Shown in pieces: positions 6,318-63,024 of a stretch of 64,000 nt of DNA. This DNA comes from Actinoallomurus soli (GTDB lineage: Bacteria; Actinomycetota; Actinomycetes; Streptosporangiales; Streptosporangiaceae), in NCBI RefSeq assembly GCF_024055715.1, contig NZ_JAMXMV010000032.1, positions 1 through 64,000 on the forward strand, written 5' to 3'. A program made the translations under genes and the position numbers. Positions within the stretch are counted from its first letter, which is position 1; each line of letters opens with the position of its first letter. The notes beneath the pieces are model-generated. The model did not search any database and was not told the DNA's origin. It was given only the letters and a program-made list of their open reading frames with translations.

Positions 6318-6331
6318 AGCGTACGCTTGGT
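6318..6331 (-). promoter_or_regulatory. KstR2-type operator, weak copy
   Basis: AGCGTACGCTTGGT. The right half CTTGGT is perfect and the left half keeps only A and C of AnCAAG, so it differs at three defined positions. An overlapping longer palindrome, CCAAGC-N8-GCTTGG, spans 6311-6330. It lies 14 bases upstream of the DUF35 ATG. Confidence 0.5.
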
Positions 6332-6433
6332 TGGCGGGCAAGAGATGGTGATCTTGTGCTTCCGGCCCGCTTTGACGGCGGCCACTACGATTGTCCGGCG
6401 AGGGGAACGTTAACGCTGGGAAAAACGGGGCCG

Positions 6434-8080
6434 ATGCGTAACAAGAGACTCTGGCTGATCATCGTCGCCGCCGCCGCCGTGGTGGTGGTTCTGGGTGCCG
6501 CGGGCGGTGGAGCGTACGTCCTGCTGCGCACCAAGGGGAGCCCACGGCAGACGGCGGAGGACTTCCTGGCCGGCTGGCGGCACGGGGACCTCGCGGCGAT
6601 GCGGGCCGCGACCGTCACGCCGCCGGCCGACTTCGACCGGTACTACCAGGGTCTGCGCACCGATCTCGGCGCCACGAAGGTCGACGTCTCACTCGGCGCC
6701 GTGACCCACCATGGGAAGCGGGCGACCGCGCCCTTCACGGCGGTGCTCACCCTGCCGGCCGGGGTCTGGAGGTACCAGGGGAGCCTGCGCCTGGTGACCA
6801 GCGACCGTAAGTGGAAGGTCGCCTGGGCCCCGGAGTCCGTCCACCCCGACCTGCACGCCGGCCAGCACTTCACGACTTCGGCCAAGTGGCTCAAACGCGG
6901 CAGCGTCCTCGCCGCCGACGGCACGCCCATCGACGGACCCGACGTGTCCGGCTCGGTCCAGCAGCTGGTCGGGACCACCGCGCCGCTGACTGACAAGCAG
7001 GCCAAGAAGCTCGGCACGCCGTACGTCAAGGGGGACGTCGTCGGGCAGTTCGGCATCCAGCAGCGGTACGACAAGCGGCTGGCCGGCACGCCCACCACGA
7101 CCATCTCGACCGCCGACGCGTCCGGGCACACCGTGAAGGCCGTCGGCGGCTTCACCGGCAAGCCCGGCCAGAACGTCAGGACGAGCCTCGATCTGCACGT
7201 GCAGCGCGCGATGTCCAGCGCGCTCCAGGGCCAGGGCAAGCCGACGTCCATGGTGGCGATCCGCCCCGCGACCGGACAGATCCTCGCGGTCGGCAACATC
7301 CCGGGCGGCTTCGACCGCGCGCTGCAGGGCACCTACCCGCCCGGCTCCACCTTCAAGGTCGTCACGGCGTACGCGCTGCTGCAGGCCGGGCTCAGCCCCT
7401 CGTCCTCCGTCCAGTGCCCCAAGACCGCCAACGTCGGCGGGCAGGTGATCCACAACTCCGAGGGCGAGGGCGGCGCCGCCAAGATGACGTTCAAGGACGC
7501 GCTAGCGGAGTCCTGCAACACCGCGTTCGCGCTGCAGACCCAGAAGCTGCTCAGCGTCTCGAAGCTGTCGAGCGCGGCGAACGCGCTCGGCTTCAACCAG
7601 AAGATCGATCCCGGCGTCACCGCCACGGCCGGCAGCTTCCCCACGCCCACCAGCGACGCGGAGAAGGCGGTCGCCGGCTTCGGCCAGGGCCGGGACCTGG
7701 CCAACGCCCTCAGCATCGCCGGGGTCGCGGCCGGGGTCGCGGACGGCACCTGGCGGCCGCCGGTGTTCGTCACCGAGCCGCAGGTGCCGCAGAAGGCCAA
7801 GCCCGGCCGGCTCGACCCGACGGCGAGGGATCGGCTGGAGGGGATGATGCGGGCCGTGGTGACCTCCGGCACCGCCAAGCCGGCCGGGCTGCCGTCCGGG
7901 ACGGCGGGCAAGACCGGCACGGCGGAGTACGGCTCGGCGCAGAACGGCAAGATGCCGCCGACACACGCCTGGTTCATGGGCTTCCGCGGCGACGTGGCGT
8001 TCGCCGTCGTCGTCGAGGGCGGCGGCTTCGGCGCCAAGGCCGCCGCGCCCATCGCCGCCCGCTTCCTGAAGGCCCTGTAG
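6434..8080 (+). CDS. Penicillin-binding protein (transpeptidase, NTF2-like N-terminal domain)
   Basis: 548 residues. One N-terminal membrane anchor (about 5-30), an NTF2-like/MecA_N-type domain (about 38-150), a dimerisation region, then a transpeptidase domain with all three motifs: STFK (Ser 305), SCN (Ser 360) and KTGT (Lys 493). It should cross-link peptidoglycan outside the membrane, as class B PBPs do. The ATG at 6434 was chosen because it directly precedes the MRNKRLW anchor; the longer start at 6356 overlaps the divergent promoter. This domain pattern resembles low-affinity, beta-lactam-tolerant PBPs, but resistance cannot be inferred. Confidence 0.9.
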   Translation: MRNKRLWLIIVAAAAVVVVLGAAGGGAYVLLRTKGSPRQTAEDFLAGWRHGDLAAMRAATVTPPADFDRYYQGLRTDLGATKVDVSLGAVTHHGKRATAPFTAVLTLPAGVWRYQGSLRLVTSDRKWKVAWAPESVHPDLHAGQHFTTSAKWLKRGSVLAADGTPIDGPDVSGSVQQLVGTTAPLTDKQAKKLGTPYVKGDVVGQFGIQQRYDKRLAGTPTTTISTADASGHTVKAVGGFTGKPGQNVRTSLDLHVQRAMSSALQGQGKPTSMVAIRPATGQILAVGNIPGGFDRALQGTYPPGSTFKVVTAYALLQAGLSPSSSVQCPKTANVGGQVIHNSEGEGGAAKMTFKDALAESCNTAFALQTQKLLSVSKLSSAANALGFNQKIDPGVTATAGSFPTPTSDAEKAVAGFGQGRDLANALSIAGVAAGVADGTWRPPVFVTEPQVPQKAKPGRLDPTARDRLEGMMRAVVTSGTAKPAGLPSGTAGKTGTAEYGSAQNGKMPPTHAWFMGFRGDVAFAVVVEGGGFGAKAAAPIAARFLKAL

Positions 8081-8223
8081 GCGACCGGCGCTGACGGCCG
8101 GGACCCGGCCGGCCGAGCCCCGGCCGACCGGGACTCGGCCGACCAGGGCCCCGGACGGCCGGAGGCCGGACGGACGGGCTCTGACGTCCGGGGTCCAGGC
8201 GCCCGAGGCTTTGACGGACGGGC
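8081..8223. repeat. GC-rich degenerate repeats between convergent genes
   Basis: The 143 bases between the PBP and endonuclease V genes carry three degenerate copies of TGACGGCCGGGAC-like sequence and several CGGCCGACC units. They can fold into many alternative GC stems. A bidirectional terminator role is plausible, but no single clean hairpin with a T-run is visible. Confidence 0.35.
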
Positions 8224-8944: not shown

Positions 8945-8958
8945 AGCAAGTGCTCGCT
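8945..8958 (+). promoter_or_regulatory. KstR2-type operator
   Basis: AGCAAGTGCTCGCT matches AnCAAGnnCTTGnT with one mismatch (CTCG for CTTG). It lies 17 bases before the ATG at 8975, with TTATCG between them and no Shine-Dalgarno, which suggests a leaderless mRNA. Confidence 0.65.
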
Positions 8959-8974
8959 CGCTTATCGTTGCGGC

Positions 8975-9604
8975 ATGTCGATCACCCTCGCCGAGCTCGC
9001 CGAGCCGGGAGGACACGCCGCCGTCCTGGTGATGGAGATGCAGCGGGGCGTCGTCGGCGATCTGACCGGCTTCCCCGCCCTCGCCGGCGCCTGCGCCGCC
9101 GGCGACGTGATCCGCAACGCCGCGCGGGTCGCCGCCGCGGCGCGGGCCGTCGGCGTCCCGGTCGTGCAGTGCACCGCGGCGTTCCGCGCCGACCGGGCCG
9201 GCAGCCACACCGACAACGCGCCGTTCGTCCGCAGGCTGCTGCGCGACCCGGCGCACATGCTGGAGGGGACCCCGGCGATCGAGGTCGTGCCGGAGCTGTC
9301 CGGCCCGGCGGACCTGGAGTCGCGGCGCTACCACGGCTTCTCGCCGTTCACCGGCACGTCCCTGGACCAGACCCTGCGCTCCCTCGGCGTCCGCACCGTC
9401 GTCGCCGTCGGGGTCTCGCTCAACCTCGGCGTCCCGGGTCTGTGCCTGGAGGCCGTGAACCTCGGCTACCGGGTCGTGGCGGTCACCGACGCGATGGCGG
9501 GCGTGCCCGCCGACTACGCCGACGCCGTCCTGACCCACACGGTCGCCCTGCTCGCCGCCCGCGCCACGGCCGACGAGCTCGTACGAGCCTGGAAGACCGT
9601 CTAG
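8975..9604 (+). CDS. Isochorismatase-superfamily protein lacking the catalytic triad
   Basis: 209 residues with the cysteine-hydrolase fold, but the usual Asp-Lys-Cys triad is altered. The D of the LLVIDMQ motif is Glu 21 (VLVMEMQRG). The Lys region is Arg (SRRYHGFSPF, about 117-118). The Cys of the TNVCV-type loop is Gly 152 (GVSLNLGVPG). Cys 157 is five residues away and might substitute. It may be non-catalytic or use different chemistry. First gene of a two-gene unit with the SDR at 9613, under its own regulator-type site. Confidence 0.8.
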   Translation: MSITLAELAEPGGHAAVLVMEMQRGVVGDLTGFPALAGACAAGDVIRNAARVAAAARAVGVPVVQCTAAFRADRAGSHTDNAPFVRRLLRDPAHMLEGTPAIEVVPELSGPADLESRRYHGFSPFTGTSLDQTLRSLGVRTVVAVGVSLNLGVPGLCLEAVNLGYRVVAVTDAMAGVPADYADAVLTHTVALLAARATADELVRAWKTV

Positions 9605-9612
9605 GAGGCCGG

Positions 9613-10344
9613 ATGGACGGGTTGTCGCTCGCCGGGCGCACCGCGCTGGTGACCGGAGGCGCCGGCGGGATCGGCACGGCGATCTGCGCCGACCTCGCGG
9701 GGCTGGGCGCCCGCGTCGTCGTCGCCGACCTCGACGAGGAGGCCGCCCGCGCGACCGCCGCCGGCCTCCCGGACGCCGTCGCCGAGCGGGTCGACCTGGC
9801 CGACCCGGCCAGCATCGACGACCTGGCGGCCCGCGCCGGCCGGGTCGACGTCCTCGTGAACAACGCCGGGGTCGGCATCGTCGAGCCGTTCGTCGACAGC
9901 GACCCGGCGTCCTGGGACCTCATGTGGCGGATCAACCTGCGCGCCCCGATGTACCTCACGCGCCTGCTGCTGCCGGGCATGCGCGGCTGGGGGCGGCTGG
10001 TGTTCATCTCCTCCGACGGCGCGCGGGCGGGCTCGGGCGGCGAGGGGGCGTACGCCGCGACGAAGGCGGGGCTGTTCGGGCTGGCCAAGACCCTGGCGCG
10101 CGAGGCCGCCCGGCAGGGCGTCACCAGCAACGTGGTCTGCCCCGGCCCGACCGACACCCCGATGCAGCGCGCGGTCGCCGAACGCCACCCCGGCCTGGTG
10201 GACAAGCTCGCCCGGGGGATCCCGCTGCGCCGCATCGGACGGCCCGACGACGTGGCGGGCCTGGTGGCGTTCCTCTGCACCGACCGGGCCGGCTACATCA
10301 CCGGCCAGACCCTGTCCGTCAGCGGCGGCATCACCATGTGCTGA
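9613..10344 (+). CDS. SDR-family dehydrogenase
   Basis: 243 residues. TGGAGGIG nucleotide-binding motif near residue 14, NNAG near 80, ISS...YAATK catalytic motif near 130-150, and a C-terminal GGITMC end. AGGAGG overlaps the TAG of the preceding gene, giving a well-placed ribosome site for the ATG at 9613. It resembles BadH-type 2-hydroxycyclohexanecarboxyl-CoA dehydrogenases and 3-oxoacyl reductases; the substrate is unproven. It ends 10 bases from the convergent hydrolase gene. Confidence 0.9.
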   Translation: MDGLSLAGRTALVTGGAGGIGTAICADLAGLGARVVVADLDEEAARATAAGLPDAVAERVDLADPASIDDLAARAGRVDVLVNNAGVGIVEPFVDSDPASWDLMWRINLRAPMYLTRLLLPGMRGWGRLVFISSDGARAGSGGEGAYAATKAGLFGLAKTLAREAARQGVTSNVVCPGPTDTPMQRAVAERHPGLVDKLARGIPLRRIGRPDDVAGLVAFLCTDRAGYITGQTLSVSGGITMC

Positions 10345-15036: not shown

Positions 15037-16542
15037 TCAGTGGCCCGGGTAGCCGCCTCCGCCGTACTCGGCGTCGAGCGCGTCGTAGTCCGGCGTGTGG
15101 CCCTTCTTCGGGATCGAGGCGGCGAACTCCACGTGCCGCGGCTTCTTATACGAGGCGATCCGCGACCGTACGTGCTCGACGACCTCCTCCCGCGTCAGCG
15201 CCGCGCCGTCCTTCGGGACCACGATCGCCTTGACGTTCTGGCCCCACTCGGGGTCGGGCACGCCGATCACGGCCGCGTCCGCGACGCCCTCGTGGTCCTT
15301 GAGCGCGCGCTCGACCTCGGCGGGGTAGATGTTCTCGTTCGCCGACTTGATCATCCGCAGTCTCGGGCCGATGAACGTGAGGGTGCCGTCCGGCTCGCGG
15401 CGGCCGAGGTCGCCGGTGTGGTGCCAGCCGCCCGCCGTCTTCGCCGCGTTCAGCGCGGGCCGGTTCCAGTAGCCGCTGAAGACCGTCGCGCCCCGCGCGC
15501 AGATCTCACCGGTCTCGCCCGGCGGGACCTCGTCCCCCGCCGGGTCCAGGATCCGCACGTGGGCGAGCGGGGACGGCCGGCCGGCGTACCCCCGCCCGCC
15601 GGGCGCCAGGCCGAGGAACGTCAGCATGCCGCCCACCTCGGTCTGGCCGTACCCGCCCATCCTCGACGCGCACCACGGGCTGTCGTCCACCGTGATCATG
15701 GCGTCCCACGCGGGGGAGTGGGAGACGAAGCGCAGGGAGGACAGGTCGTACGTGCCGCCGGCGTTCGCCTCGACGAGCTGGTCGATCATCGGCCCGAACA
15801 GGAACGCCTGCGTGCAGCGCTCGGCCTCGACGAGCCGGCAGACCTCCTTCGGGTCGTACGCGGGCGTGAAGACGTTGGTGCCGCCGAGCTGGAAGGTCGC
15901 CAGGCAGAACATCATCGTCCCGACGTGGAACAGCGGCCCGCAGTTCAGGTAGGTGAAGCCGTCCTCCATCCGCCGGATGTGCAGCAGCGTCATCGCGTGC
16001 GCGACCAGTGCCGCGTGGCTCAGCAGCGCCGCCGCGGGCCGCCCGTCGAACGCCGCCGTGTAGAGGGCGAGCACCGGCAGGTCGGGCGTCACCGCGACGG
16101 CCGGCTCGTCCGGCGCCCCCGCGGCGGCGTACGCCTCGTACTCCTCGCCCGCGGCGATCCAGCGCGCCGGAGCCGTCGTACGGGCGCGGGACTCCCCGGC
16201 CGCCTCGGACTCCTCGAACACGACGACGGCGGGCCGCAGGTCGTCCAGCACGAACGTCAGCTCGTCGGCGCTCTGCCGCCAGTTGGCCGGGCAGCAGATC
16301 GCGCCGAGCCGGGCGGCGGCCAGCAGCAGCTCCAGGATCCGGAAGGAGTTCCGGCCGAGCCACAGGACGCGCTCGCCGGGGCCGACCCCGTCGGCGGCGA
16401 GCGCGTTCGCGAGCCGGTTCACCCGCTCGTCGAGCCGCGGATAGGTCAGCCGGACGTCCGCGTCCACCACCGCCAGGCCGAGCGGCCGGCCGCGCCGGTG
16501 CTCGCCGAGGACGTCTCCGAGGGTCAACCCGTGTACGGACAT
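15037..16542 (-). CDS. Acyl-CoA synthetase-like protein with degenerate P-loop
   Basis: 501 residues. The adenylate-forming fold is intact with YGQTEVGG, TGDLGRREPDG and LRMIKSANENIYPAEVE. The A3 loop at about 161-172 reads YTAAFDGRPAAA where TSGTTGxPKG is usual. The C-terminal PKKGHTPDYDAL lacks the usual GK lysine. An actinobacterial FadD clade with similar A3 loops exists as far as I recall, so it may still be active. Second gene behind the luciferase-like gene and the site at 17745-17758; 126 bases separate them. Confidence 0.85.
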   Translation of the reverse strand: MSVHGLTLGDVLGEHRRGRPLGLAVVDADVRLTYPRLDERVNRLANALAADGVGPGERVLWLGRNSFRILELLLAAARLGAICCPANWRQSADELTFVLDDLRPAVVVFEESEAAGESRARTTAPARWIAAGEEYEAYAAAGAPDEPAVAVTPDLPVLALYTAAFDGRPAAALLSHAALVAHAMTLLHIRRMEDGFTYLNCGPLFHVGTMMFCLATFQLGGTNVFTPAYDPKEVCRLVEAERCTQAFLFGPMIDQLVEANAGGTYDLSSLRFVSHSPAWDAMITVDDSPWCASRMGGYGQTEVGGMLTFLGLAPGGRGYAGRPSPLAHVRILDPAGDEVPPGETGEICARGATVFSGYWNRPALNAAKTAGGWHHTGDLGRREPDGTLTFIGPRLRMIKSANENIYPAEVERALKDHEGVADAAVIGVPDPEWGQNVKAIVVPKDGAALTREEVVEHVRSRIASYKKPRHVEFAASIPKKGHTPDYDALDAEYGGGGYPGH

Positions 16543-16638
16543 CGCTCTCCTGTCGACGTTGGGACGTGCCGTGGGGAGGCCGGCGGGCCGAGGCAGGCCA
16601 CCCGAAGGCCGGCGGCCACCGCCGCGTGAGGCGCCCTC

Positions 16639-16683
16639 TCAGCGGAGGGCCGGTCAGCGGAGGACCGGTCAGCGGAAGGCCGG
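16639..16683. repeat. Three tandem 15-bp repeats spanning the LLM stop codon
   Basis: Three near-identical units of the form TCAGCGGAGGGCCGG lie at 16639-16653, 16654-16668 and 16669-16683. Each unit begins with TCA, a stop codon on the minus strand; the third supplies the actual TGA of the luciferase-like gene. Replication slippage at the 3' end is the likely origin. Confidence 0.7.
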
Positions 16684-17727
16684 CATCACCTCGGCGGCGA
16701 AGAACCTCAGGACCCTCTTCATCTCCTCGATGGGGACGGGCCGGGTGCTGCCGAAGTCGCACATCAGGTGCGTGAACCCGAAGTCGCCGATCATCTTGAT
16801 CTGGTTGATCACCCGGTCGGGGTCGCCGATGACCTCCAGCTGCTCCCAGCGGAAGTCGGCACCGACCTGGCCGCCCTTGAGGTAGCGGTCCTGCCAGTAC
16901 TCGAATCCCTTGGCGACCTGGCCGGTCCTGGAGTCGATGGGCGCGCTCTGCCGGTTGAAGATGCGCGAGCGATCGAAGGAGCTCTCGAAGCGCTCCTGGT
17001 CGGCGCGGGCCTGCTCGACGGTCGGCGCGACGTACACGGACCGGGTGGCGACCAGCTCGGCCCCCTCGGTCTCCACCCCGTTGGCGCGTGCGGTCGCGTA
17101 CCAGGTCTCCGCCGCCTTGGCGATCTTCTTGAAGGGCGCCGCGGGGTCGGCGAGGATCGGCAGTCCGCGCGCGGCGTACAGCTCCACCGTCTCGGGGCTG
17201 ACGGCGGCGACGTGCAGGGGTGGGTGCGGGCGTTGCACCGGCCGCGGGGTGAGGCTCACCTCGTTGCCCGTGCCGTAGTACTCGCCCTGGAAGTGGACGG
17301 TGTCCCGGGTCCACAGCGCGATGATCATGTCGAGGGCCTCGTCGAAGCGTTCGCGTGCCTCGCCGAGGTCGACGCCGAAGCTCTCGAACTCCACGCTCTG
17401 GTAGCCGCGCCCGACGCCCATCTCCAGGCGGCCGCCGGACAGCAGGTCGACCATCGCGGCCTCCTCCGCGACGTGCACCGGGTTGTGCAGGGGCAGCACG
17501 ACGATCCCGGTGCCGAGCCGGATGCGCTCGGTGCGCGCGGCGAGGTTGGACAGCAGCGTGAAGATGTTCGGCACGACGCCGTAGTCGCGGAAATGGTGCT
17601 CGGCCACCCACAGCCCGTCGAAGCCCAGCTCCTCACAGACCTCGGCGATCTCGATCTGGTAGTCGTACACCTCCCGGACGGTCTGCCCCTCGAATCGGTG
17701 GAAGAGCTGGAACGTGGAGAACTTCAT
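16669..17727 (-). CDS. Luciferase-like (LLM-class) flavin/F420-dependent oxidoreductase
   Basis: 352 residues of the bacterial luciferase-like fold. Visible features: GFDGLWVAEHHF near residue 35, IRLGTGIVVLPLHNPVHVAEEAAMVD near 70, and GRLEMGVGRGY near 98. These enzymes use FMNH2 or reduced F420 for oxygenation or hydride transfer. GGAGGTG is well spaced before the ATG. First gene of a two-gene unit with an acyl-CoA ligase, preceded by a regulator-type palindrome. A paralogue leads the unit at 59931. Confidence 0.88.
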   Translation of the reverse strand: MKFSTFQLFHRFEGQTVREVYDYQIEIAEVCEELGFDGLWVAEHHFRDYGVVPNIFTLLSNLAARTERIRLGTGIVVLPLHNPVHVAEEAAMVDLLSGGRLEMGVGRGYQSVEFESFGVDLGEARERFDEALDMIIALWTRDTVHFQGEYYGTGNEVSLTPRPVQRPHPPLHVAAVSPETVELYAARGLPILADPAAPFKKIAKAAETWYATARANGVETEGAELVATRSVYVAPTVEQARADQERFESSFDRSRIFNRQSAPIDSRTGQVAKGFEYWQDRYLKGGQVGADFRWEQLEVIGDPDRVINQIKMIGDFGFTHLMCDFGSTRPVPIEEMKRVLRFFAAEVMPAFR

Positions 17728-17744: not shown

Positions 17745-17758
17745 ACCAAGCGCTCGCT
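17745..17758 (-). promoter_or_regulatory. KstR2-type operator with likely -10 box
   Basis: ACCAAGCGCTCGCT matches the 14-bp consensus with one mismatch and continues into a larger symmetric ACCAAGCG-CT-CGCTTGGT. On the minus strand a TACGCT -10-like box (17764-17769) lies immediately upstream, so bound regulator would cover the start of transcription of the 17727 gene. Confidence 0.7.
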
Positions 17759-17974
17759 TGGTAAGCGTATCAGGTGCCGCGCCCGCGATGGAGTCCCGGC
17801 GGAATTCGCGAAGAGGCAATACCTGCGGTGAATTGCCGCATACAGGCGGTGATAGTCACAAAATATGTCAAACGACGTATTTCCCCGCAGTGATCGTTTC
17901 CCTAGCATTTGTGTCCACGCATCGTCTGGCTCGGGGGAGCGGCACCCTGATCGGCGCCGGGGAAGGAGGCTGCG

Positions 17975-22838: not shown

Positions 22839-22852
22839 AGCAAGCACTCGCT
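22839..22852 (+). promoter_or_regulatory. KstR2-type operator
   Basis: AGCAAGCACTCGCT matches AnCAAGnnCTTGnT with one mismatch (CTCG). It ends 16 bases before the ATG of the thiolase-like gene at 22869 and lies in the divergent gap with the methyltransferase. Confidence 0.65.
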
Positions 22853-27703: not shown

Positions 27704-27717
27704 CCCAACCGCTTGTT
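27704..27717 (-). promoter_or_regulatory. KstR2-type operator, autoregulatory
   Basis: Read on the minus strand it is AACAAGCGGTTGGG: a perfect AnCAAG half and a second half with two mismatches. It lies 22 bases upstream of the TetR start, as expected for self-repression. Confidence 0.55.
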
Positions 27718-52565: not shown

Positions 52566-53179
52566 CAGCCCTCGAAGCGGCCGTAGGCACCCTTGTAGAA
52601 GACGAGCGGATCACCGTCGTGGTGCTTGTCGAGATGGTGCACCTGGGCGACGACGATGACGTGGTCGCCGGCGACGTACTCCGCCTCGACGGAGCACTCC
52701 AGCCAGGCGAGCGCGCCGTGGATGACGGGGCTGCCGCCGGGCGATTCGGTCCACTCCAGGCCGGCGAACTTGTCCACGCCCTTCGTGGCCAGCTGCAGGC
52801 AGACCTCGCGCTGCGGCGCGGAGAGGATGTTGACGCAGTGCCGGTCGGCGTCCCGGAGCCGGGGCCAGGTGGAGCTGGTGTGGGCGACGCAGAAGGAGAC
52901 GAGCGGCGGGTCCAGCGACACGGAGGTGAACGAGTTGGCCGCCAGGCCGGTGGGCAGGCCGGTCTCGGGGTCGATGGCGGTGATGGCGACCACACCGGTG
53001 GCGAACCGGCCGAGGATGGTGCGAAAGCGCATCTTGTCGATGTCGGCGACCGGCTCGGTCGTTGCCGGACGGGCTGCTCCGTTGGCCGGGGCGGGCGCGC
53101 GCCGTGGCGTGTTCTGGCCGGAGGATCGTGCGGCCGGACCCCGGGGGATCGGCGTGGCGGCGGTCGCGCCGTCGGGCAT
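52565..53179 (-). CDS. Flavin reductase (HpaC/HsaB-like) with Pro/Ala-rich N-terminus
   Basis: 204 residues. After a 55-residue low-complexity N-terminus comes the flavin-reductase domain: FRTILGRFATGVVAITAID, GLAANSFTSVSLDPPLVSFCV and FAGLEWTESPGGSPVIHGALAWLEC. It should reduce FMN/FAD with NAD(P)H and supply it to a monooxygenase; the two LLM-class proteins in the regulon are candidates. ATG 53179 with AAAGGATC upstream; the longer frame crosses the operator. First gene of its unit. Confidence 0.88.
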   Translation of the reverse strand: MPDGATAATPIPRGPAARSSGQNTPRRAPAPANGAARPATTEPVADIDKMRFRTILGRFATGVVAITAIDPETGLPTGLAANSFTSVSLDPPLVSFCVAHTSSTWPRLRDADRHCVNILSAPQREVCLQLATKGVDKFAGLEWTESPGGSPVIHGALAWLECSVEAEYVAGDHVIVVAQVHHLDKHHDGDPLVFYKGAYGRFEG

Positions 53180-53198: not shown

Positions 53199-53245
53199 GC
53201 CAAGCGCTTGCTTGGACGATAGGCGGCGGCCTCGTGAGGTGTCAA
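53199..53245 (-). promoter_or_regulatory. Promoter and KstR2-type operator of the flavin reductase unit
   Basis: On the minus strand TTGACA (53240-53245), an 18-bp spacer and TATCGT (53216-53221) form a strong promoter. The operator AGCAAGCGCTTGGC (53199-53212; one mismatch from AnCAAGnnCTTGnT) starts four bases beyond the -10, over the transcription start, an ideal repressor position. Confidence 0.82.
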
Positions 53246-53416: not shown

Positions 53417-53472
53417 TTGACATCCCGGCCGGATGGCCTCTACCGTCCAAGAGATTTGACCGAGCGCTTGGT
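53417..53472 (+). promoter_or_regulatory. Promoter and KstR2-type operator of the thiolase-DUF35 unit
   Basis: TTGACA (53417-53422), 18-bp spacer, TACCGT (53441-53446), then the operator ACCGAGCGCTTGGT (53459-53472; one mismatch) 12 bases past the -10, near or just after the start of transcription. It mirrors the arrangement on the other side of the gap. Confidence 0.82.
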
Positions 53473-53490: not shown

Positions 53491-54648
53491 ATGGGGTTGC
53501 GGGATCGGGCGGCGATCGCCGGGGTCGGGTACACGCCGTTCAGCAAGGACTCCGGCGTCTCCACGCTCACCCTCGCCATCGACGCGATCCTCGCCGCGCT
53601 CGACGACGCCGGACTGAGCGTCGACGACGTCGACGCGCTGGCCACCCACCGCGTCGGCGACTCGACGCCGCCCTGGGTGGTGGCCCCGGCGCTGGGCATC
53701 CCCGAGGTGAGCTGGTATCTCGACCAGTTCGGCGGGGGAAGCGTCTCGCACGCGGTGATCGGGCAGGCGGCCATGGCGGTGGCCACGGGCGTCGCCCGCA
53801 CGGTCGTCTGCTACCGCGCGATCAACGCGCGCTCGGAGTTCCGCATGGGCGGCACCGGGCGCGGCGTCGCACCGGTGTACGACGCGCAGTACCAGGCCCC
53901 GTACGGCTACTTCGCGCCGCCGCAGCAGTTCGCCATGTTCACCCGGGCGCACATGCTCAAGTACGGGACGACGCACGAGCAGCTCGGCTCCATCGCGGTC
54001 GGTCAGCGCGCCAACGCCGCGAAGAACCCGCAGGCCCTCAAGCGCGACCCGATCACGATCGAGGACTACCTGGCCTCGCGGTGGATCGCCGAGCCGCTCC
54101 GCCTGCTCGACTGCTGCCTGGAGACGGACGGGGCCTGCGCGGTCGTCGTCACCTCCGCCGAGCGCGCCCGTGACCTCGCCGCCCCGCCGGTCCTGATCTC
54201 CGGCGCCGTCTGGGGCGGGGGCGACAGCTTCCTCTCCGGCCAGGGCGGCGACTTCACCGTCTCGGAGGCCGCGCGGATCGCGCCCCGGCTGTACGCCATG
54301 GCAGGCGTCGGCCCGGAGGACATCGACGTCGCCGAGCTGTACGACTGCTTCACCTACTCGGTGCTCGTCCAGCTGGAGGACTACGGGTTCTGTGCCAAGG
54401 GCGAGGGCGGCCCGTACGCCGCCTCCGGTGCGATCCGGCCGGACGGGGCGCTGCCGGTCAACACCCATGGCGGCTTCCTCTCGGAGGGGTACGTGCACGG
54501 CATCAACCACGTCGCCGAGGCCGTCGCGCAGTTGCGCGGCACCGCCGGCGACCGCCAGGTGAGCGGCGCTGAGGTGGCGCTGTCCACGGCCCAGCCCGGC
54601 TACGTCCTCGCCGGCACCTCGGCGCTCATCCTCCGGGCCGATCGATGA
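53491..54648 (+). CDS. Thiolase-like protein, Ltp2-type aldolase candidate
   Basis: 385 residues. AAIAGVGYTPFSKDSG at the start, GGGSVSHAVIGQAAM near residue 80 with Ser where thiolases have the nucleophilic Cys, VAELYDCFTYSVLVQLEDYGF near 280, and NTHGGFLSEGYVHGINH near 325. Lack of the Cys and the following DUF35 gene (ATGA overlap) match Ltp2-type retro-aldolases, which cleave beta-hydroxyacyl-CoA side chains together with a DUF35 partner. The aldolase reading is inference. Confidence 0.88.
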   Translation: MGLRDRAAIAGVGYTPFSKDSGVSTLTLAIDAILAALDDAGLSVDDVDALATHRVGDSTPPWVVAPALGIPEVSWYLDQFGGGSVSHAVIGQAAMAVATGVARTVVCYRAINARSEFRMGGTGRGVAPVYDAQYQAPYGYFAPPQQFAMFTRAHMLKYGTTHEQLGSIAVGQRANAAKNPQALKRDPITIEDYLASRWIAEPLRLLDCCLETDGACAVVVTSAERARDLAAPPVLISGAVWGGGDSFLSGQGGDFTVSEAARIAPRLYAMAGVGPEDIDVAELYDCFTYSVLVQLEDYGFCAKGEGGPYAASGAIRPDGALPVNTHGGFLSEGYVHGINHVAEAVAQLRGTAGDRQVSGAEVALSTAQPGYVLAGTSALILRADR

Positions 54649-55058
54649 GCCTGGGCGAGCGGCCGAGGCCGCAGGTCGATCGCGACTCCGCGCCGTGGTG
54701 GGAGGCGGTACGCCGGCACGAACTGCTCGTCCAGGAGTGCGTCGACTGCGGGACGCTCCGCTTCCCGCCCCGCGCGATCTGCGGCCGCTGCCGGTCCCGG
54801 CGGAGCGGCTGGGCGCCGGTCCGGGGGACCGGCCGCGTCGCGAGCTGGATCGTGAACCATCAGGTCTTCATGCGCGCCTTCGCGGACGAGGTGCCGTACG
54901 CCGTGCTGCACGTGCGGCTCGACGAGGCCGACGACCTGTTCATGTACGGCGACCTGGCCGGCGCGGACCCCGCCGACGTGACGCCGGGCATGCCGGTCCA
55001 GGCGGTCTTCACGGACATCGACGACGATCTGACGCTCGTACGCTGGCGGCCCCGCTGA
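54645..55058 (+). CDS. DUF35 OB-fold protein, partner of the thiolase-like gene
   Basis: 137 residues. Zinc ribbon CVDCGTLRFPPRAICGRC near 30-50, then an OB fold (GRVASWIVNHQVFMRAFADE to LVRWRPR). Its start overlaps the preceding stop by ATGA, so the two proteins are made together, as expected for a tight complex. The 172 bases after it hold no gene apart from the leader of the next one. Confidence 0.9.
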   Translation: MSLGERPRPQVDRDSAPWWEAVRRHELLVQECVDCGTLRFPPRAICGRCRSRRSGWAPVRGTGRVASWIVNHQVFMRAFADEVPYAVLHVRLDEADDLFMYGDLAGADPADVTPGMPVQAVFTDIDDDLTLVRWRPR

Positions 55059-56152: not shown

Positions 56153-57739
56153 TCAGCGGGCCCGCGCGCGCAGCGCCCGCTTGTCGACCTTGCCGTTGGC
56201 GTTCGCGGGCAGGGAGTCGACGAGCGTGACGTGCCGGGGGACCTTGTAGTTCGCCATGTGCGCGCGCGCCCAGGCGACGATCTCGGCCGGTTCCACGGGC
56301 GCCGAGGGGACCACGAACGCCCACCCGACCTCGCCCAGCGTCCCGTCGGGCACCGCGACGACCGCGGCCTGGGCGACCGCCGGGTGGTGCAGGAGCAGCG
56401 CCTCGATCTCCGCCGGGTACGCGTTGAACCCCCCGACGATGAACATGTCCTTCTTCCGGTCGACGATCGCGAGGTTACCCCGCGCGTCGAGGGCGCCGAC
56501 GTCCCCGGTGTGCAGCCACCCCTCGGCGTCCACGGCCTCGGCCGTGCGCACGGGGTCGTCCCAGTACCCGCGCATCACGCCGTACCCGCCGACGAGGATC
56601 TCTCCGCGCTCGCCGGCCGGCAGGTCCTTCCCGTCGTCGTCCACGACCCGGACCGTCACGCCCGGCACCGGACGCCCCGTGGTGGCGGCGATCACCTCGA
56701 CCGGGTCCTCGGCGCGGGTCATCGACACGACGGTGCCCTCCATCAGTCCGTACGCGTTGATCATCCGGTCCAGTCCGACCCGTTCGATCAGCCGCCGGAT
56801 CAGCTCCGGCGGCACCGCCGCCGCCCCGCAGATCGCGACCCGCAGCGAGGACACGTCGCGGCCGTCGACCTCCTCCAGGATCCGGTGGAACAGCGTCGGA
56901 GGCCCCGCCAGCACGCTGACCCGCTCCCGTTCGATCAAATCCAGCAGCGCGTCCGGCGCGAACACCGAGATCGGCATCATCGTCGCCCGCTTCAGCACGC
57001 AGGCCAGCAGCCCGGCGTTGATCCCGAAACCGTGGGAGAACGGCGCAATGATCGGGTAGCGGTCGCCCGCGCGCAGCGTGACGATCGACGCCCAGTCCCA
57101 GTAGCCGCGCAGCAGCTGCGCGTGATGCAGCATGACGCCCTTCGGCCGGCCGGTCGTGCCCGACGTGGCCATGATCTCGCCGAGGTCGTCCGGGCCGACC
57201 GCCAGCGCGCGGTCCTCGGCGCCCGTGACGCGCTCACCGCCCGCGAGCAGGTCCTCGTACGCGAGGACCGGCGGGGGCGCGCCGGTCCCGGGGAGCGTGA
57301 CGACGTGCCGCAGCTCCGGCAGGTCGCCGTACGGCCGCCCGCCGACCGGTCCGCCGCAGATCTCCTCCAGCGCGCCGACGTAGGAGAACCCGAGGAACCC
57401 CTCGTCGACGAACAGGACCCGCGCGCCGGTCCGGCGCAGCAGGGCGGCGGCCTCGATCCCGCGGAACCGGGTCGACAGCGGCGTGACGATCGCCCCGGCG
57501 TCCCAGACGCCGTACGCGATGACCACCCAGGCCGCGGAGTTCGGCGCCCACACGGCGACACGGTCGCCCGGCTCGACGCCGAGGGCGATCAGCCCGCGGG
57601 CCACCCGCGCGGCCTCCTCACGGAGCGCGCGCAGCGTCAGCGTCGTGCCGCCGTCCACGATCACGACGTCGCCGGGATGGCGTGCCGTCCGGTCGCGCAG
57701 CATCCGCGGGATCGTTCCCCAGTCCGGCACCGGTTCCAT
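56153..57739 (-). CDS. Acyl-CoA synthetase, FadD3-like
   Basis: 528 residues with all key motifs: TSGTTGRPKGVMLHH near 195, NAYGLMEGTVVSM, GWLHTGDVGALDARGNLAIVDRKKDMFIVGGFNAYPAE, and the catalytic Lys in PANANGKVDKRALR. Several stretches (ALGVEPGDRVAVWAPN, DGTLGEVGWAFVVP) recall mycobacterial FadD3, the HIP-CoA ligase under KstR2. GGAGG lies about nine bases before the ATG. Third gene of the unit begun by the LLM gene at 59931. HIP as substrate is inference only. Confidence 0.87.
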   Translation of the reverse strand: MEPVPDWGTIPRMLRDRTARHPGDVVIVDGGTTLTLRALREEAARVARGLIALGVEPGDRVAVWAPNSAAWVVIAYGVWDAGAIVTPLSTRFRGIEAAALLRRTGARVLFVDEGFLGFSYVGALEEICGGPVGGRPYGDLPELRHVVTLPGTGAPPPVLAYEDLLAGGERVTGAEDRALAVGPDDLGEIMATSGTTGRPKGVMLHHAQLLRGYWDWASIVTLRAGDRYPIIAPFSHGFGINAGLLACVLKRATMMPISVFAPDALLDLIERERVSVLAGPPTLFHRILEEVDGRDVSSLRVAICGAAAVPPELIRRLIERVGLDRMINAYGLMEGTVVSMTRAEDPVEVIAATTGRPVPGVTVRVVDDDGKDLPAGERGEILVGGYGVMRGYWDDPVRTAEAVDAEGWLHTGDVGALDARGNLAIVDRKKDMFIVGGFNAYPAEIEALLLHHPAVAQAAVVAVPDGTLGEVGWAFVVPSAPVEPAEIVAWARAHMANYKVPRHVTLVDSLPANANGKVDKRALRARAR

Positions 57740-57781: not shown

Positions 57782-58870
57782 TCACACCGTGACGGCCGCC
57801 CTGTCCCGGCCCAGGTGGTGTCCGCGCAGATCGGTCACCGTTCCGGGCCGGGACTCCTCCGCGACGTCCTCCTCGACGACGACGTCGATGGCGACCGGCG
57901 TGATCGCGACGAGGGCCTGGTGGATGCGCGACCGCCACATCGGGTTCTTCACGAGCGTCGCGCGGTTGAACGTGACGTGCAGCGCGGCGGCGTCGAGCGT
58001 GCCGGCGCGGGAGACCCGCAGGTCCCAGTGGGCGATGCCGTCGATCCGGGCCAGGGCCGCGGTCACCCGCGGGATCGAGAGCCACCGCCCCCGCACGAGG
58101 AGGTGCTCGCCGACGGTGTGGTCCGGCGCGGGGATCCCCGTGCCCCCGGTCAGGCGCACGACCTGCCCGGTGCGCAGCGTCGCGCCGCCCAGCGTCGAGT
58201 GCCAGGCGGGGGTGACCACGATCTCCGCTGCTCCGGCCTCGTACGGCGGTTCGAGCAGCACGTCCTTGCCGACCGGCGCGACGCCCAGCAGCCCGTCGCG
58301 GGCCGGGGTGTACGCGGTGTCGCGCGCGGAGCGGTGCGCCGTCGGCAGGCCGAAGAACGGGTCGACGTACAGCTCGCCGACCTCGGCCTCGAACTCGGAC
58401 GCCAGCTGCGTGTACGTGCCCGGCGACGGGATCTCCCCGGCGAGCAGGATCCGGCGCAGGCCGAGGTCGAGCGGGTCGAGGAGGAACTCCAGGTGCAGCC
58501 GGGCGAGCAGGTCCATCGCGCCCGTGGGCGTCGCGATCAGCGTGGTCGCCCGTACCGCCTCCAGGGCGTGGTGCAGGCGGAGGCGGCCGCGCGGCCCGGG
58601 CGCGGCGGCGGCCCGGGCGACCTCGGCGCACGCCCGGGCGATCAGGGTGCCGGTCGCCTCGCCGTCGTTGTTCAGCGCGACCACCACCCGGTCGGCCGGG
58701 CCGACACCGGCGGCGCGCAGCGTCGTCGTCGCCAGGTCCAGCGCCGCCGCGCGGTCCCCGGCGGTCAGCGGCAGGACCACGTCGGCCTCGGGAGAGACCA
58801 GCAGCAGCCCTGCCGCGTCGCGGGCGGCCGGGAGGGCGTCGCGGGCGGTCCAGTTCATGTCCCGGGTCAC
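57782..58870 (-). CDS. PaaK-like adenylate-forming protein with degenerate P-loop
   Basis: 362 residues from a GTG overlapping the LLM stop by GTGA. The overall layout matches phenylacetate-CoA ligases: LRRILLAGEIPS, VGELYVDPFFGLPT, and a C-terminal domain with HLLVRGRWLSIPRVTAALARI. The N-terminal region is shorter than in PaaK, and the A3 P-loop reads LPLTAGDRAAALDL with no SGTTG. It may be a ligase of altered specificity or an inactive helper. 42 bases separate it from the FadD3-like gene. Confidence 0.8.
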   Translation of the reverse strand: MTRDMNWTARDALPAARDAAGLLLVSPEADVVLPLTAGDRAAALDLATTTLRAAGVGPADRVVVALNNDGEATGTLIARACAEVARAAAAPGPRGRLRLHHALEAVRATTLIATPTGAMDLLARLHLEFLLDPLDLGLRRILLAGEIPSPGTYTQLASEFEAEVGELYVDPFFGLPTAHRSARDTAYTPARDGLLGVAPVGKDVLLEPPYEAGAAEIVVTPAWHSTLGGATLRTGQVVRLTGGTGIPAPDHTVGEHLLVRGRWLSIPRVTAALARIDGIAHWDLRVSRAGTLDAAALHVTFNRATLVKNPMWRSRIHQALVAITPVAIDVVVEEDVAEESRPGTVTDLRGHHLGRDRAAVTV

Positions 58871-59931
58871 CCCATCACCTCGTCCATGAACAGCCGCATC
58901 GACGCGGTCACGTGTTCGCCGGCCAGGCCACCGACCTGGGCCTGGAGGATCAGGTCGGTGGCCCCGGCGGCCTGGATGCGCTCGACGGCCTTGCGGGAGC
59001 CCTCGACGTCGTCCACGACCACCATGTGGTGCTCGCGGAGGGTCTCCATCGCCTCCTCGGGCGGCAGCCCGGCGGCGAGCTGGCCCAGCACCCGGTGGGT
59101 GGCGTGCCGGGCGTCGTAGTAGTCCGGGGGAGTGACGAGGTTCACCTGGCGCCGGATGTACCAGAGGATGGCGTCGGCGGCCGTCGAGACGGCCTCGTCC
59201 TTCGATGGCGCGACGTGCCAGGGGATCATCAGCGCGATCCGCCGGGTCTCCGGGTCGAATCCGCTGCTCGCCAGGCACCTCTTGTACTCGGCGATGTCCT
59301 CGGCGACGTCGTCGAGGCCCTTGAGCATCGTCATGCCGAGCAGGTTGTAGCCCTTGCGGGCCGCGGCGAGGTAGCCGTCCAGGGAGGTCGAGGCGACCCA
59401 GACCGGCGGGTGGGGCTCCTGCACCGGGCGCGGGTAGACCGCGACGTCCGGCACCTCGAAGAACTGGTTCGACCTGGACACCGGCTCGCCGTCGGCGGTC
59501 CAGATGGCCAGCACCGCCTCCAGAGTGTCCTCCCAGATCCGCCGGGACTGCTCGAAGGGCCGCTGGAACGCCTGGTACTCCAGTGGGGACGCCCCGCGCC
59601 CGGTGCCGAACTCCACCCGCCCGCCGCTGAGAACGTCGAGGGTGGCGACCCGCTCGGCGGTGCGCACGGGGTGCTGGAACGGCAGCAGGACGACGCCCAG
59701 GCCCAGGTGGATCCGTTCGGTCCGCTGTGAGCAGGCCGCCAGGACGAGGTCGGGCGCGGAGGAGTGCGAGAACCCGCGCGTGAAGTGGTGCTCCACGAAC
59801 CACGCCGTGTCGTAGCCGAGGCGGTCGGCCAGGACGACCTGGTCGATGACGTTCTGGAAGGCCCGCCGCTCGACCTCGCGGGTGCGCCCGCGCACCTCGA
59901 GCTCGTAACCCACGCTGACCCGTAGGGACAT
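58867..59931 (-). CDS. Luciferase-like (LLM-class) oxidoreductase
   Basis: 354 residues, same fold as the protein at 16669: LGYDTAWFVEHHF near 40, IHLGLGVVLLPFQHPVRTAERVATLDVLSGGRVEFGTGRG near 75-115, and PRPVQEPHPPVWVAS near 180. ATG 59931 with GGAGG five bases upstream; the GTG just before it is too close to the ribosome site. First gene of a three-gene unit with two ligase-family proteins. A flavin- or F420-dependent oxygenation or dehydrogenation of a CoA-pathway intermediate is the likely role. Confidence 0.88.
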   Translation of the reverse strand: MSLRVSVGYELEVRGRTREVERRAFQNVIDQVVLADRLGYDTAWFVEHHFTRGFSHSSAPDLVLAACSQRTERIHLGLGVVLLPFQHPVRTAERVATLDVLSGGRVEFGTGRGASPLEYQAFQRPFEQSRRIWEDTLEAVLAIWTADGEPVSRSNQFFEVPDVAVYPRPVQEPHPPVWVASTSLDGYLAAARKGYNLLGMTMLKGLDDVAEDIAEYKRCLASSGFDPETRRIALMIPWHVAPSKDEAVSTAADAILWYIRRQVNLVTPPDYYDARHATHRVLGQLAAGLPPEEAMETLREHHMVVVDDVEGSRKAVERIQAAGATDLILQAQVGGLAGEHVTASMRLFMDEVMG

Positions 59932-59958: not shown

Positions 59959-59983
59959 ACCAAGCGCTCGCTTGGGAAGCGTA
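59959..59983 (-). promoter_or_regulatory. KstR2-type operator with promoter
   Basis: ACCAAGCGCTCGCT (59959-59972), identical to the copy at 17745, one mismatch from consensus. On the minus strand TACGCT (59978-59983) is the -10, with TTGTTG as a weak -35 17 bp further upstream. The operator lies just downstream of the -10, as at 53199. Confidence 0.75.
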
Positions 59984-61231: not shown

Positions 61232-61328
61232 AGGGGGGCACCTCACGGGGGGAGTCATGGAGCCAACGAGCCGCGCGCGGGCCGGCATTCCCCGACGTCG
61301 GCTCCGCAGGGGGCGGAAGTGTCTCAGG

Positions 61329-61640
61329 TCACCGGCCGGCGGCCCGCGGCATGATCTCGTCGAGGTGCCGGCGCAGCGCGGCCCGCAGGCTCTCCGCGTC
61401 GAGACGCCCGGGCTGCAGGACGGAGTGCAGCGCGAGCCCGTCGACCAGCGCGTACAGGCGTTCGGTCTCGATGTCCACGTCGATGCCGTCCCGCAGGACG
61501 CCGGTCCGCTCCGCCGCCGCGAGCACCTTGTGGACGAGCTCGCGGGTCTGGTCGTACAGCCGCTCGGCGTACGGTCGCAGTTCCTCGCGGGTGCGGGCGC
61601 TCACGGTGAAGGCCAGCCAGACAGGTGGCAGGAGGCGCGT
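61329..61640 (-). pseudogene. C-terminal fragment of a TetR regulator
   Basis: About 100 codons match only the ligand-binding domain of BetI-type TetR proteins (VWLAFTVSARTREELRPYAE to SLRAALRRHLDEIM). Upstream in frame (61641-61841) the residues are Arg/Pro/Gly-rich with no helix-turn-helix, so the DNA-binding domain is gone. A decayed regulator next to the small membrane protein and acyl-CoA dehydrogenase genes. Confidence 0.75.
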
Positions 61641-61825
61641 CGGTACGCCGAGCCGCTGCTTCGGGCGCTCGCGCGGGAGGACCGGGACGGCCGTCCGGCC
61701 GGGACTCCTCCGGGTCGGCGGAGCGCGGGTGGCGGCGCCCGCCGCGCGGCGGCCCGCGCCCTCCTGGGATACCTCGAAGACCGCCCGGCGCGGGACGGGA
61801 AGGGGACGGACCGGTGAGCCGGGGC

Positions 61826-61993
61826 ATGCCGATCCTGTCATCCGGGGGCGCCCGGGCCGTCGCGGAGGGAGACGGAGACCGGGTCCTCCACGAGCTCGCG
61901 ATGGACTACCTGATCAAAGGCGCGATCGTCATCGTCGCCCTGGTCGTCCTCTGCCTCGTGCTGGTGATCGTCTACCGGAGGGTCGGCAGGTAG
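61826..61993 (+). CDS. Small single-TM protein
   Basis: 55 residues from the ATG at 61826, or only 30 from the ATG at 61901 (MDYLIKGAIVIVALVVLCLV and on to RRVGR). One strong TM helix followed by a basic tail, so N-out/C-in is likely. Neither start has a good Shine-Dalgarno. Its stop abuts the stop of the convergent acyl-CoA dehydrogenase. Unknown function; coding status is uncertain. Confidence 0.45.
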   Translation: MPILSSGGARAVAEGDGDRVLHELAMDYLIKGAIVIVALVVLCLVLVIVYRRVGR

Positions 61994-62998
61994 TCACAGC
62001 GCCAGGGCGGCGGCGAGCCGGGCGCGGTGCGCCTCGGGCGTCCCGAAGAGCCGCGCGGACGCGGTCGCCCGCTTGAGATGCAGCTGGGCGTCGTGCTCCC
62101 AGGTGACGCCGATGCCGCCGAGGATCTGGATCGTCTCGCCCGCCGTGTGCAGGTACGCCTCGGCGCAGTACGACCCGGCGAGCGCGGCGTACACCGGAAG
62201 ACGCTCCGGCTCACGGTCGGCGACCCGCGCCGCCTCGTACGCGGCGGACCGGGCCGACTCGACCCGCAGGAGCATGTCCGCGAGCTTGTGCTTGATCGCC
62301 TGGAAGGCGCCGATCGGCCGGCCGAACTGGACCCGGGTCCGCGCGTGCTCGACGGCCGTCTCCAGGCAGCGCTGGGCGCCGCCGACCTGCTCGGCGGCGA
62401 GCGCGGTCAGGGCGAGGTCGCGCACCCGGCTCAGGTCGCCGTCGATCCGCTCGGCCGGGGCGCCGTCGAACCGAAGGCGCGCCAGCCGCCGCGTCTGGTC
62501 GAGCGTGACGTGCGGAGTCCGCGTGACGTCGGCGCCTCGCACCGCGTAGCTCCGGCCGGCCACCGCGCAGACGATGACATCGGCGAGGTGCCCGTCGAGG
62601 ACGTACGGGGCGGTGCCGGTCAGGTGGTCTCCCTCCGCCGTCAGCTCCCCGTCCAGGACGACGGCCGCGATCAGGGAGCCGTCGGCGATTCCGGCGAGCA
62701 GGCGGCCGTCCCGCACGGCGTACGCGGCGAGCACCGCGGTGGCGAGGTAGGGGACGGGGGTCAGCGCCCGGCCCAGCTCCTCGCAGACGACGGCGAGCTC
62801 GGTGAGCCCGCGGCCTGCTCCGCCGTGCTCCTCGGGGACCGCCAGGCCTGTGAGCCCCAGCTCCCCCGAGAGCCGTCGCCACAGCGCCGCGTCGTGCGCG
62901 GCCGGGTCGGCCATGAGCCGCCGTACGGCAGGGGGCGGGCATGCCTCGCCGAGGAAGGCACGGACGACCGCCCGCAGGTCATCGAGTTCATCGCTCAC
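61994..62998 (-). CDS. Acyl-CoA dehydrogenase, short form
   Basis: 334 residues. LTGLAVPEEHGGAGRGLTELAVVCEELGRALTPVPYLAT near 50-85, RVQFGRPIGAFQAIKHKLADM near 225, and GGIGVTWEHDAQLHLKRA near 300 with a likely catalytic Glu. Shorter than the 383-residue enzyme at 51414, a size contrast seen in the alpha/beta subunits of steroid-type heterotetrameric dehydrogenases. Here the two genes are 9 kb apart but share the operator type. Monocistronic. Confidence 0.88.
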   Translation of the reverse strand: MSDELDDLRAVVRAFLGEACPPPAVRRLMADPAAHDAALWRRLSGELGLTGLAVPEEHGGAGRGLTELAVVCEELGRALTPVPYLATAVLAAYAVRDGRLLAGIADGSLIAAVVLDGELTAEGDHLTGTAPYVLDGHLADVIVCAVAGRSYAVRGADVTRTPHVTLDQTRRLARLRFDGAPAERIDGDLSRVRDLALTALAAEQVGGAQRCLETAVEHARTRVQFGRPIGAFQAIKHKLADMLLRVESARSAAYEAARVADREPERLPVYAALAGSYCAEAYLHTAGETIQILGGIGVTWEHDAQLHLKRATASARLFGTPEAHRARLAAALAL

Positions 62999-63010
62999 GA
63001 GACGATCATA

Positions 63011-63024
63011 ACCAAACGCTTGCT
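63011..63024 (-). promoter_or_regulatory. KstR2-type operator
   Basis: ACCAAACGCTTGCT matches AnCAAGnnCTTGnT with one mismatch (A for G). It lies 12 bases upstream of the acyl-CoA dehydrogenase start at 62998, implying a very short or absent leader. The remaining bases to 63184 hold nothing recognisable. Confidence 0.68.

Follow-up and report, generated by a model that had tools for sequence, protein, structure and literature searches.

The window analysed here, the first 64,000 nucleotides of contig NZ_JAMXMV010000032.1 of Actinoallomurus soli (assembly GCF_024055715.1), most probably holds a dispersed KstR2 regulon, in which a KstR2 orthologue of the TetR family would repress about eight units until a coenzyme A (CoA) thioester of the pathway builds up; we put the probability of this reading at roughly 0.8. 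KstR2 is the known repressor for degradation of the last two steroid rings. Computation supports the regulator's identity, the operators and the degree to which they are conserved, and it ties the units to C/D-ring (HIP) catabolism; that the TetR protein binds the operators, and what its inducer is, we infer. Genomes, contigs and loci are cited by our own numbers (G, C and L).

Palindromic operators in the window

A sequence-only reading had claimed nine 14-mer palindromes with one to three mismatches to AnCAAGnnCTTGnT, and all nine are present, with three mismatches at 6318, two at 27704 and one at each of the remaining seven. They are, with no strand assigned:

6318 to 6331: weak operator, 9.5 bits; outer arms CCAAGC-N8-GCTTGG kept in genome G052 of the same genus
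8945 to 8958: operator AGCAAGTGCTCGCT before g09-g10; in G052 it also precedes the SDR10 orthologue
17745 to 17758: operator ACCAAGCGCTCGCT before LLM17, within the 18-bp palindrome ACCAAGCGCTCGCTTGGT; site at 6 of 6 orthologues examined
22839 to 22852: operator AGCAAGCACTCGCT before Ltp23; site at 5 of 11 orthologues
27704 to 27717: weak operator (9.8 bits) in the promoter of kstR2
53199 to 53212: operator GCCAAGCGCTTGCT before HsaB48-FadE47; HsaB48 orthologues 14 of 20
53459 to 53472: operator ACCGAGCGCTTGGT before Ltp49-DUF35_50; site at 15 of 15 orthologues examined
59959 to 59972: operator ACCAAGCGCTCGCT before LLM54-w53-FadD3_52; site at 13 of 13 orthologues examined
63011 to 63024: operator ACCAAACGCTTGCT before FadE58; site at 5 of 8 orthologues

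With at most one mismatch the window has exactly seven matches, all among the claimed nine, where the genome rate would predict 0.99 (P 8e-5; P 6e-4 at the rate of the control pattern). With at most two mismatches it has 25, against 4.70 expected (standard deviation 2.39; maximum 13 in 100 shuffles), and 17 of the 25 fall outside the claimed nine. A narrowed pattern, ANCRAGYRCTYGNT, which was chosen after inspection of the sites, occurs at 19 places in the genome against 8 for its control, and five of these places lie in the window (P 6e-8 versus the rest of the genome). The counts by mismatch refer to the published consensus (Kendall 2010, PMC3068626). Pattern scans covered the whole genome of 9.42 Mb, and a matrix scan about 435 kb of it.

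The sites were also scored with a matrix derived from 119 sites in relatives, among which 36 sequences are distinct; these had been gathered by means of a matrix from seven window sites, so that the new matrix is not fully independent of the window. At 9 bits or more it returns nine places in the window, the claimed nine, and at 15 bits or more seven; the strong sites score 19 to 23 bits, 27704 scores 9.8 and 6318 scores 9.5. In 40 random Markov windows the mean was 0.65 matches (maximum 3) at the lower threshold and 0.025 (maximum 1) at the higher. The real window, when reversed, gave two matches of at least 9 bits, one of them of 15.7, and because such matches occur there too, 6318 and 27704 are unproven by score alone. 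In G052 the arms of 6318 are intact and a single difference lies between them, and 27704 is found again with the same two mismatches; some relatives have a second, proximal site whose distance to the start is similar to that of 27704. When the seven-site matrix was applied to 1.55 Mb in 80 named relatives' loci, 120 matches reached 15 bits, against 12 in the same loci reversed. One site in relatives, ACCAAGCGCTTGCT, is contained in a probe of the electrophoretic mobility shift assays by which KstR2 was shown to bind its three motif regions (PMC3068626).

All nine sites are intergenic in the gene model, in which intergenic sequence makes up 14.3% of bases and starts are model-chosen; if the longest possible starts were taken, four of the nine (6318, 27704, 53199 and 59959) would sit inside N-terminal extensions.

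At 17745-17762 and 59959-59976 the 14-mer lies inside a longer palindrome with a 4-base register (ACCAAGCGCTCGCTTGGT, with a different last base at 59959), which could leave room for two overlapping repressor dimers.

Conservation of the sites before orthologous genes

The position of the sites was compared in genes at least 50% identical to a window gene, over 300 upstream bases, with identical upstream stretches counted once and a site defined as a match of at least 15 bits. The sampling of loci was not random, being centred on the TetR, LLM54, Ltp49 and HIP or KstR genes. An upstream site was found for every orthologue of LLM54 (13/13), Ltp49 (15/15) and LLM17 (6/6), for most of those of SDR02 (9/10) and HsaB48 (14/20), and for those of the TetR gene (34/57) and FadE58 (5/8), compared with 132 of 2189 for all other genes in the loci, HIP genes included. 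No such site preceded EndoV (0/9) or the orthologues of the downstream operon genes FadD3 (0/14) and w53 (0/13). Other window genes, taken as controls, gave 0/1 to 0/11 each, except g27 (5/7) and g30 (2/3); in relatives both of these genes can share the intergenic region of the TetR gene.

The regulator

27005 to 27682, minus strand: KstR2 orthologue, TetR family; GTG start at 27682 inferred from relatives

The start is probably the GTG at 27682, by comparison with relatives. The best phmmer matches of the protein were the solved chains 2ibd (1.5e-51) and 4w97, a KstR2 (4.6e-46), with the next protein at 3.5e-22, and its GILSGSLYHHF stretch, in the recognition helix, is identical to that of 4w97. 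A quick 88-row tree places it inside the set of KstR2 proteins from HIP clusters, in a branch of 52 rows (support 94) apart from 4w97 and from a second KstR2 of the same genome; inner nodes of the set have support of 94-95. Its counterpart and the fadA6-type gene of a C/D-ring cluster are transcribed divergently, with an operator between them, at 10 of 45 loci from Streptosporangiales (Nonomuraea, Streptosporangium and Planotetraspora); one of the ten, in L055, was missed by the gene model and placed by sequence match. On this combination of similarity, tree and synteny the window TetR is a KstR2 orthologue, and the resemblance to KstR2 proposed in the sequence-only reading, together with the membership of the clade by which it was to be judged, is upheld.

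No ipdAB, ipdC, echA20 or fadA6 gene occurs in the window, so that here the regulator is neither in nor beside a HIP cluster. A strong site lies in 34 of 57 promoters of the relatives' TetR genes, where the window has the weak 27704 (9.8 bits).

The units under the operators and their link to HIP catabolism

967 to 6304, minus strand: operon g06-g02, DUF35 protein (ChsH2-type zinc ribbon plus OB domain), VOC protein, AMP-forming ligase, NDP-forming ligase and short-chain dehydrogenase/reductase (SDR)
8975 to 10344, plus strand: isochorismatase-like hydrolase and BadH-like SDR (g09-g10)
15037 to 17727, minus strand: LLM17 (luciferase-like) and AMP-forming acyl-CoA ligase
22869 to 23978, plus strand: Ltp23, lipid-transfer/thiolase-type protein, YDAY motif
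51414 to 52565, minus strand: FadE47 (g47), acyl-CoA dehydrogenase, in the FadE30 position (before ipdF) in relatives
52565 to 53032, minus strand: HsaB48 (g48), flavin reductase, start uncertain; HsaB model NF045630 178.6 bits, cut-off 230
53491 to 54648, plus strand: Ltp49 (g49), relative of the Ltp2 aldolase, YDCF motif; PDB 6ok1, 1e-89
54645 to 55058, plus strand: DUF35_50 (zf-ChsH2 plus OB_ChsH2_C), presumed partner of Ltp49
56153 to 57739, minus strand: FadD3-like acyl-CoA ligase (g52); NF005801 603.2 bits, cut-off 657
57782 to 58870, minus strand: w53, very remote AMP-ligase-like protein, adjoining LLM54 in all 14 relatives' loci
58867 to 59913, minus strand: LLM54, luciferase-like protein, 79-90% identical in 14 relatives
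61994 to 62914, minus strand: FadE58 (g58), IpdE2-like acyl-CoA dehydrogenase subunit; NF050027 243.7 bits, cut-off 450

The structure 6ok1 is, we assume, the Ltp2-DUF35 aldolase. The Ltp2 catalytic motif YDHF is found neither in Ltp49 (YDCF) nor in Ltp23 (YDAY), and is present in a homologue on contig C9 of the same genome. The best PDB profile match of w53 has an E-value of 0.009, and its Pfam AMP-binding match is below that family's cut-off. Besides g48 this genome has no match to the HsaB family at 1e-40.

Several of the units contain genes of HIP type. Both in five relatives (G025, G059, G003, G051 and G027) and in canonical HIP clusters g47 lies directly before ipdF, which is the order of Rv3559c-Rv3560c (PMC5380842), and runs of HsaB48-FadE47-ipdF occur in five relatives. 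In G003, G051 and G059 the window-type KstR2 adjoins a fadA6-type gene, and CAAGCGCTTG-type sites precede both the HIP genes and the module; operators also occur before fadA6- and echA20-type genes of relatives. The named isolates Nonomuraea glycinis CGMCC 4.7430 and Nocardiopsis potens DSM 45234 have Ltp49/HsaB48 units with operators, and no LLM54 within the 20-kb loci compared. Further HIP genes of A. soli are on contig C55. The sequence-only reading had held the gene content to be unlike that of the KstR2 regulon, and in that form the point is not supported, given g47 in the FadE30 position, the FadD3-like g52, the IpdE2-like g58 and the HIP genes on C55. In another sense it holds for the luciferase-like, flavin-reductase, Ltp and DUF35 parts, which the list of mycobacterial KstR2 genes in PMC5380842 lacks, as far as that list was covered, and which may be an undescribed branch of steroid catabolism. 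A steroid context is also indicated by a CYP125 gene that bears the same operator in this genome and in G052.

These observations are consistent with the following mechanism. The TetR protein at 27005-27682 would repress about eight units through CAAGCGCTTG-type palindromes in their promoters and would let go when a CoA thioester of the pathway accumulates; in mycobacteria the inducer of KstR2 is HIP-CoA, made by FadD3. Alongside their HIP-type genes (FadD3-, FadE30- and IpdE2-like) the units would carry an accessory module for the oxidation and cleavage of an acid derived from a steroid, in which the luciferase-like LLM54 would be fed by the flavin reductase HsaB48 and Ltp49-DUF35 would act as a retro-aldolase-type pair. 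The module is located beside, or in trans to, an ipdAB/echA20-type cluster.

Distribution of the module and of the classical ring-opening genes

Among 61 genomes of the family, LLM54 was found in 15 and Ltp49 (at 1e-110) also in 15, with 14 common to both sets. An EchA20-type gene (NF005925) occurs in 29 genomes, namely in 15 of the 15 with LLM54 and 14 of the 46 others (Fisher 1e-6, not corrected for descent). Because of this, and because of the HsaB48-FadE47-ipdF runs, the module is linked to HIP catabolism.

HsaC was found at 50% identity or more in 14 genomes (in 20 at E of at most 1e-20, including the LLM54 genome G027 at 40%), and KshA at 1e-60 in the same 14. The 29 genomes with an EchA20-type gene divide into 14 with LLM54 only, 13 with KshA/HsaC only, one with both (G028) and one with neither (G010), a complementarity with a Fisher P of 2.9e-6, not corrected for descent. 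A single joined query served for both KshA and KstD, with 14 candidates scored per genome; even so, each of the 14 HsaC genomes yielded KshA. In this genome HsaC gave no match at 1e-20 (33 of 33 candidates scored), and KshA or KstD none at 1e-60 among the 14 of 55 candidates scored; the HsaA, HsaD and AtcABC genes were not searched genome-wide. We take AtcABC to be the 2,3-seco genes. Of the reference proteins, HsaA, HsaD, KstD and FadA5 pass their NCBIfam cut-offs, KshA was named by PDB, and the names ChsE and ChsH rest on gene order, with Pfam in addition for ChsH2. The HsaC reference sits between HsaD and HsaB and matches 2zi8, which was deposited as BphC and which we presume to be HsaC.

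In G028, the sole genome of the 61 with both LLM54 and KshA/HsaC, the latter are on contig C15 and LLM54 is on C5.

KstR over its cut-off occurs in 8 of the 61 genomes and HsaB in 5, in neither case together with LLM54. The statement that LLM54 genomes lack KstR was nevertheless rejected, as 9 of the 15 (G001, G003, G025, G027, G028, G044, G051, G058 and G059) have weaker matches at 1e-40 or below, and the KstR-like protein of this genome narrowly missed that limit (5.1e-40).

Alternative explanations

The distribution suggests, though it does not show, that part of the classical A/B-ring route has been replaced by the module. It is a tentative proposal, possible although doubtful, that some Streptosporangiales have exchanged the classical 9,10-seco opening of rings A and B (KshA, HsaABCD) for a KstR2-controlled route, in which luciferase-like monooxygenases with an HsaB-type flavin reductase and an Ltp-DUF35 aldolase feed the ordinary HIP pathway. 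An explanation to be held just as tentatively is that these genomes leave rings A and B closed, and that the module only degrades HIP, or near relatives of it, excreted by other steroid degraders. This would fit the 14 of 15 LLM54 genomes that have an EchA20-type gene with neither a KshA match nor HsaC at 50% identity or more, as well as the FadD3-like gene within the LLM54 operon. On the other hand, a pure HIP feeder would find the sterol side-chain homologues on C9 (CYP125, ChsE, ChsH, Ltp2 and FadA5) superfluous, KstD-like matches occur in 5 of the 15 LLM54 genomes (G059, G025, G058, G003 and G028), and the oxygenases and the aldolase are absent from the HIP gene table in PMC5380842, to the extent of that table.

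The sequence-only reading had proposed an undescribed pathway under a KstR2-type switch. The switch and the operators before catabolic units stand; that the substrate is an unrelated ring compound, for instance a terpenoid, with a borrowed switch, is unlikely. The luciferase-like, BadH-like SDR and isochorismatase-like genes would suit alicyclic or terpenoid catabolism, but LLM54 occurs only in EchA20-type genomes and the operons are shared with ipdF- and FadD3-type genes, and a pathway unrelated to HIP was therefore rejected as first choice.

The operators might instead be bound by the second KstR2 of the genome, at C55:160568-161149, which is 46% identical to the window TetR and groups with Streptomyces proteins (99) inside a cluster with HIP gene order. 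Its helix is nearly identical to that of the window TetR (GILGGSLYYHF versus GILSGSLYHHF). However, its own operators (C55:162009 and 168186, L037) have CAAA halves, a feature that 63011 alone shares among the seven strong window sites. Across the named loci the SGSLYHHF helix is mostly found together with CAAG cores, and the AGSLYYHF helix with CAAA-half cores at 13 of 14 sites, a covariation that is confounded with lineage. We consider it very unlikely that the C55 protein binds the window sites in place of the window TetR. Chance palindromes are scarcely credible and, for the seven strong sites, ruled out by their conserved position before orthologues, in spite of the loose motif's lack of genome-wide enrichment and the one site above 15 bits in the reversed window; 6318 and 27704 may be such palindromes.

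Several results weigh against a dispersed KstR2 regulon. The genome scan proposed in the sequence-only reading gave a divided answer: with at most one mismatch the loose motif is at 146 places in the whole genome against 204 for the reversed-pattern control, and is thus not enriched, and only the narrower motif exceeds its control (19 versus 8), for which reason the case rests on the narrower motif and on conservation. Within the window, both 6318 and the site at the regulator's own promoter, 27704, are weak. An upstream site was found for only 1 of 2 orthologues of SDR10, 0 of 1 of DUF35_06, 17 of 34 of FadE47 and 5 of 11 of Ltp23, and the related genomes are non-independent samples. The FadD3-like (603.2/657), IpdE2-like (243.7/450) and HsaB-like (178.6/230) proteins do not reach the curated cut-offs. 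The support of the KstR2 set against the outgroup, five rows with long branches, is only 76, and the C55 protein, with its very similar helix, could bind some of the window sites.

Comparison with known systems

The regulation is a variant of the KstR2 type already known, and the possible replacement of A/B-ring opening is the interesting part. The window shares with the mycobacterial and rhodococcal KstR2 regulon (PMC3068626, PMC5380842) the regulator family, the operator, FadD3-, FadE30- and IpdE2-like genes and an ipdAB/echA20-type cluster elsewhere in the genome. Unlike that regulon, described there with three promoter regions and 15 genes, it has nine sites over 57 kb and adds luciferase-like proteins, an HsaB-like flavin reductase, Ltp-DUF35 pairs and further ligases; outside the window CYP125 also bears the operator. 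KstR2 has been described as controlling a small regulon for the last two steroid rings. Here its operator fronts more genes, luciferase-like oxygenases and CYP125 among them, in genomes in which the searches for KshA and HsaC found neither.

Ltp49, with its adjoining DUF35 gene, is related to 6ok1 and recalls the side-chain aldolase Ltp2-ChsH2 and Sal (PMC12329534), although its YDCF resembles the motifs of Sal and SLP and not the YDHF of Ltp2, the DUF35 protein is stand-alone, and a KstR2-type operator lies upstream. In the pdc cluster of Caenibius tardaugens a luciferase-like Baeyer-Villiger monooxygenase acts on progesterone and is thought to need a flavin reductase (PMC12239570). LLM54 is likened to that enzyme by description, not by sequence, both being luciferase-like, and the C. 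tardaugens system differs from the window in phylum, regulators and neighbours. For the breakdown of HIP, an earlier proposal cited in PMC5380842 included a Baeyer-Villiger step. The literature searched contained nothing joining KstR2 with a luciferase-like monooxygenase and, at the level of listings, nothing on KstR2 in Streptosporangiales or on HIP catabolism without HsaC/KshA that matched the module.

If ring opening does proceed through the module, the aerobic opening of steroid rings would have a second solution in Actinobacteria and there would be a new way to dismantle the steroid nucleus, with new steroid oxygenases and aldolases becoming available. Surveys based on KshA or HsaC as markers would miss such organisms. 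Nonhomologous steroid pathways are, as Bergstrand 2016 (PMC4810484) notes, invisible to homology surveys. Even without an alternative route, the comparison gives an indication of how changes in the KstR2 helix and in the operator core go hand in hand.

Further genes and sites in the genome

The cluster on C55, with its Streptomyces-type KstR2, includes the putative EchA20, FadA6, IpdF, IpdA, IpdB and IpdC. These names are our own assignments, made by gene order (PMC5380842), for three of the proteins also by generically named NCBIfam models whose cut-offs they exceed, and for three by Pfam CoA-transferase and NMO domains.

The CYP125 gene at C9:96982-98202 (L034:1982-3202) has the operator ACCAAGCGCTCGCT, kept at 55 and 56 bases upstream in this genome (G000) and in G052, respectively; its product matches solved CYP125 chains at 2e-111 and 8vxi at 2e-158. 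C9 also holds homologues of FadA5 (67%), Ltp2 (73%), ChsE and ChsH as well as a diverged KstR-like TetR protein at C9:109672-110268 (137 bits, 5.1e-40; NF033703 cut-off 280 bits). No KstR over the NF033703 cut-off, and no match at 1e-40, was found in this genome.

Other strong sites precede an LLM gene with a divergent run of PhyH, phosphotriesterase, P450 and SDR genes, an aldehyde dehydrogenase gene and a CoA transferase gene. Some lie inside coding sequence, for example C33:337443, and are probably due to chance. The site ACCAAGCGCTTGAT at C44:478847 (L042:10847) is 338 bases upstream of an Mce4-type operon (MlaE and Mce4_CUP1 domains).

At C83:62316-66527 of G052 (L211:2316-6527) there are two more operators, one before a zinc alcohol dehydrogenase gene and one before genes for an alpha/beta hydrolase and two luciferase-like proteins. 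The genes at these operators have no orthologues in the approximately 435 kb of A. soli stretches examined. The hydrolase with its luciferase-like neighbours might be the set expected for oxygenation followed by lactone opening.

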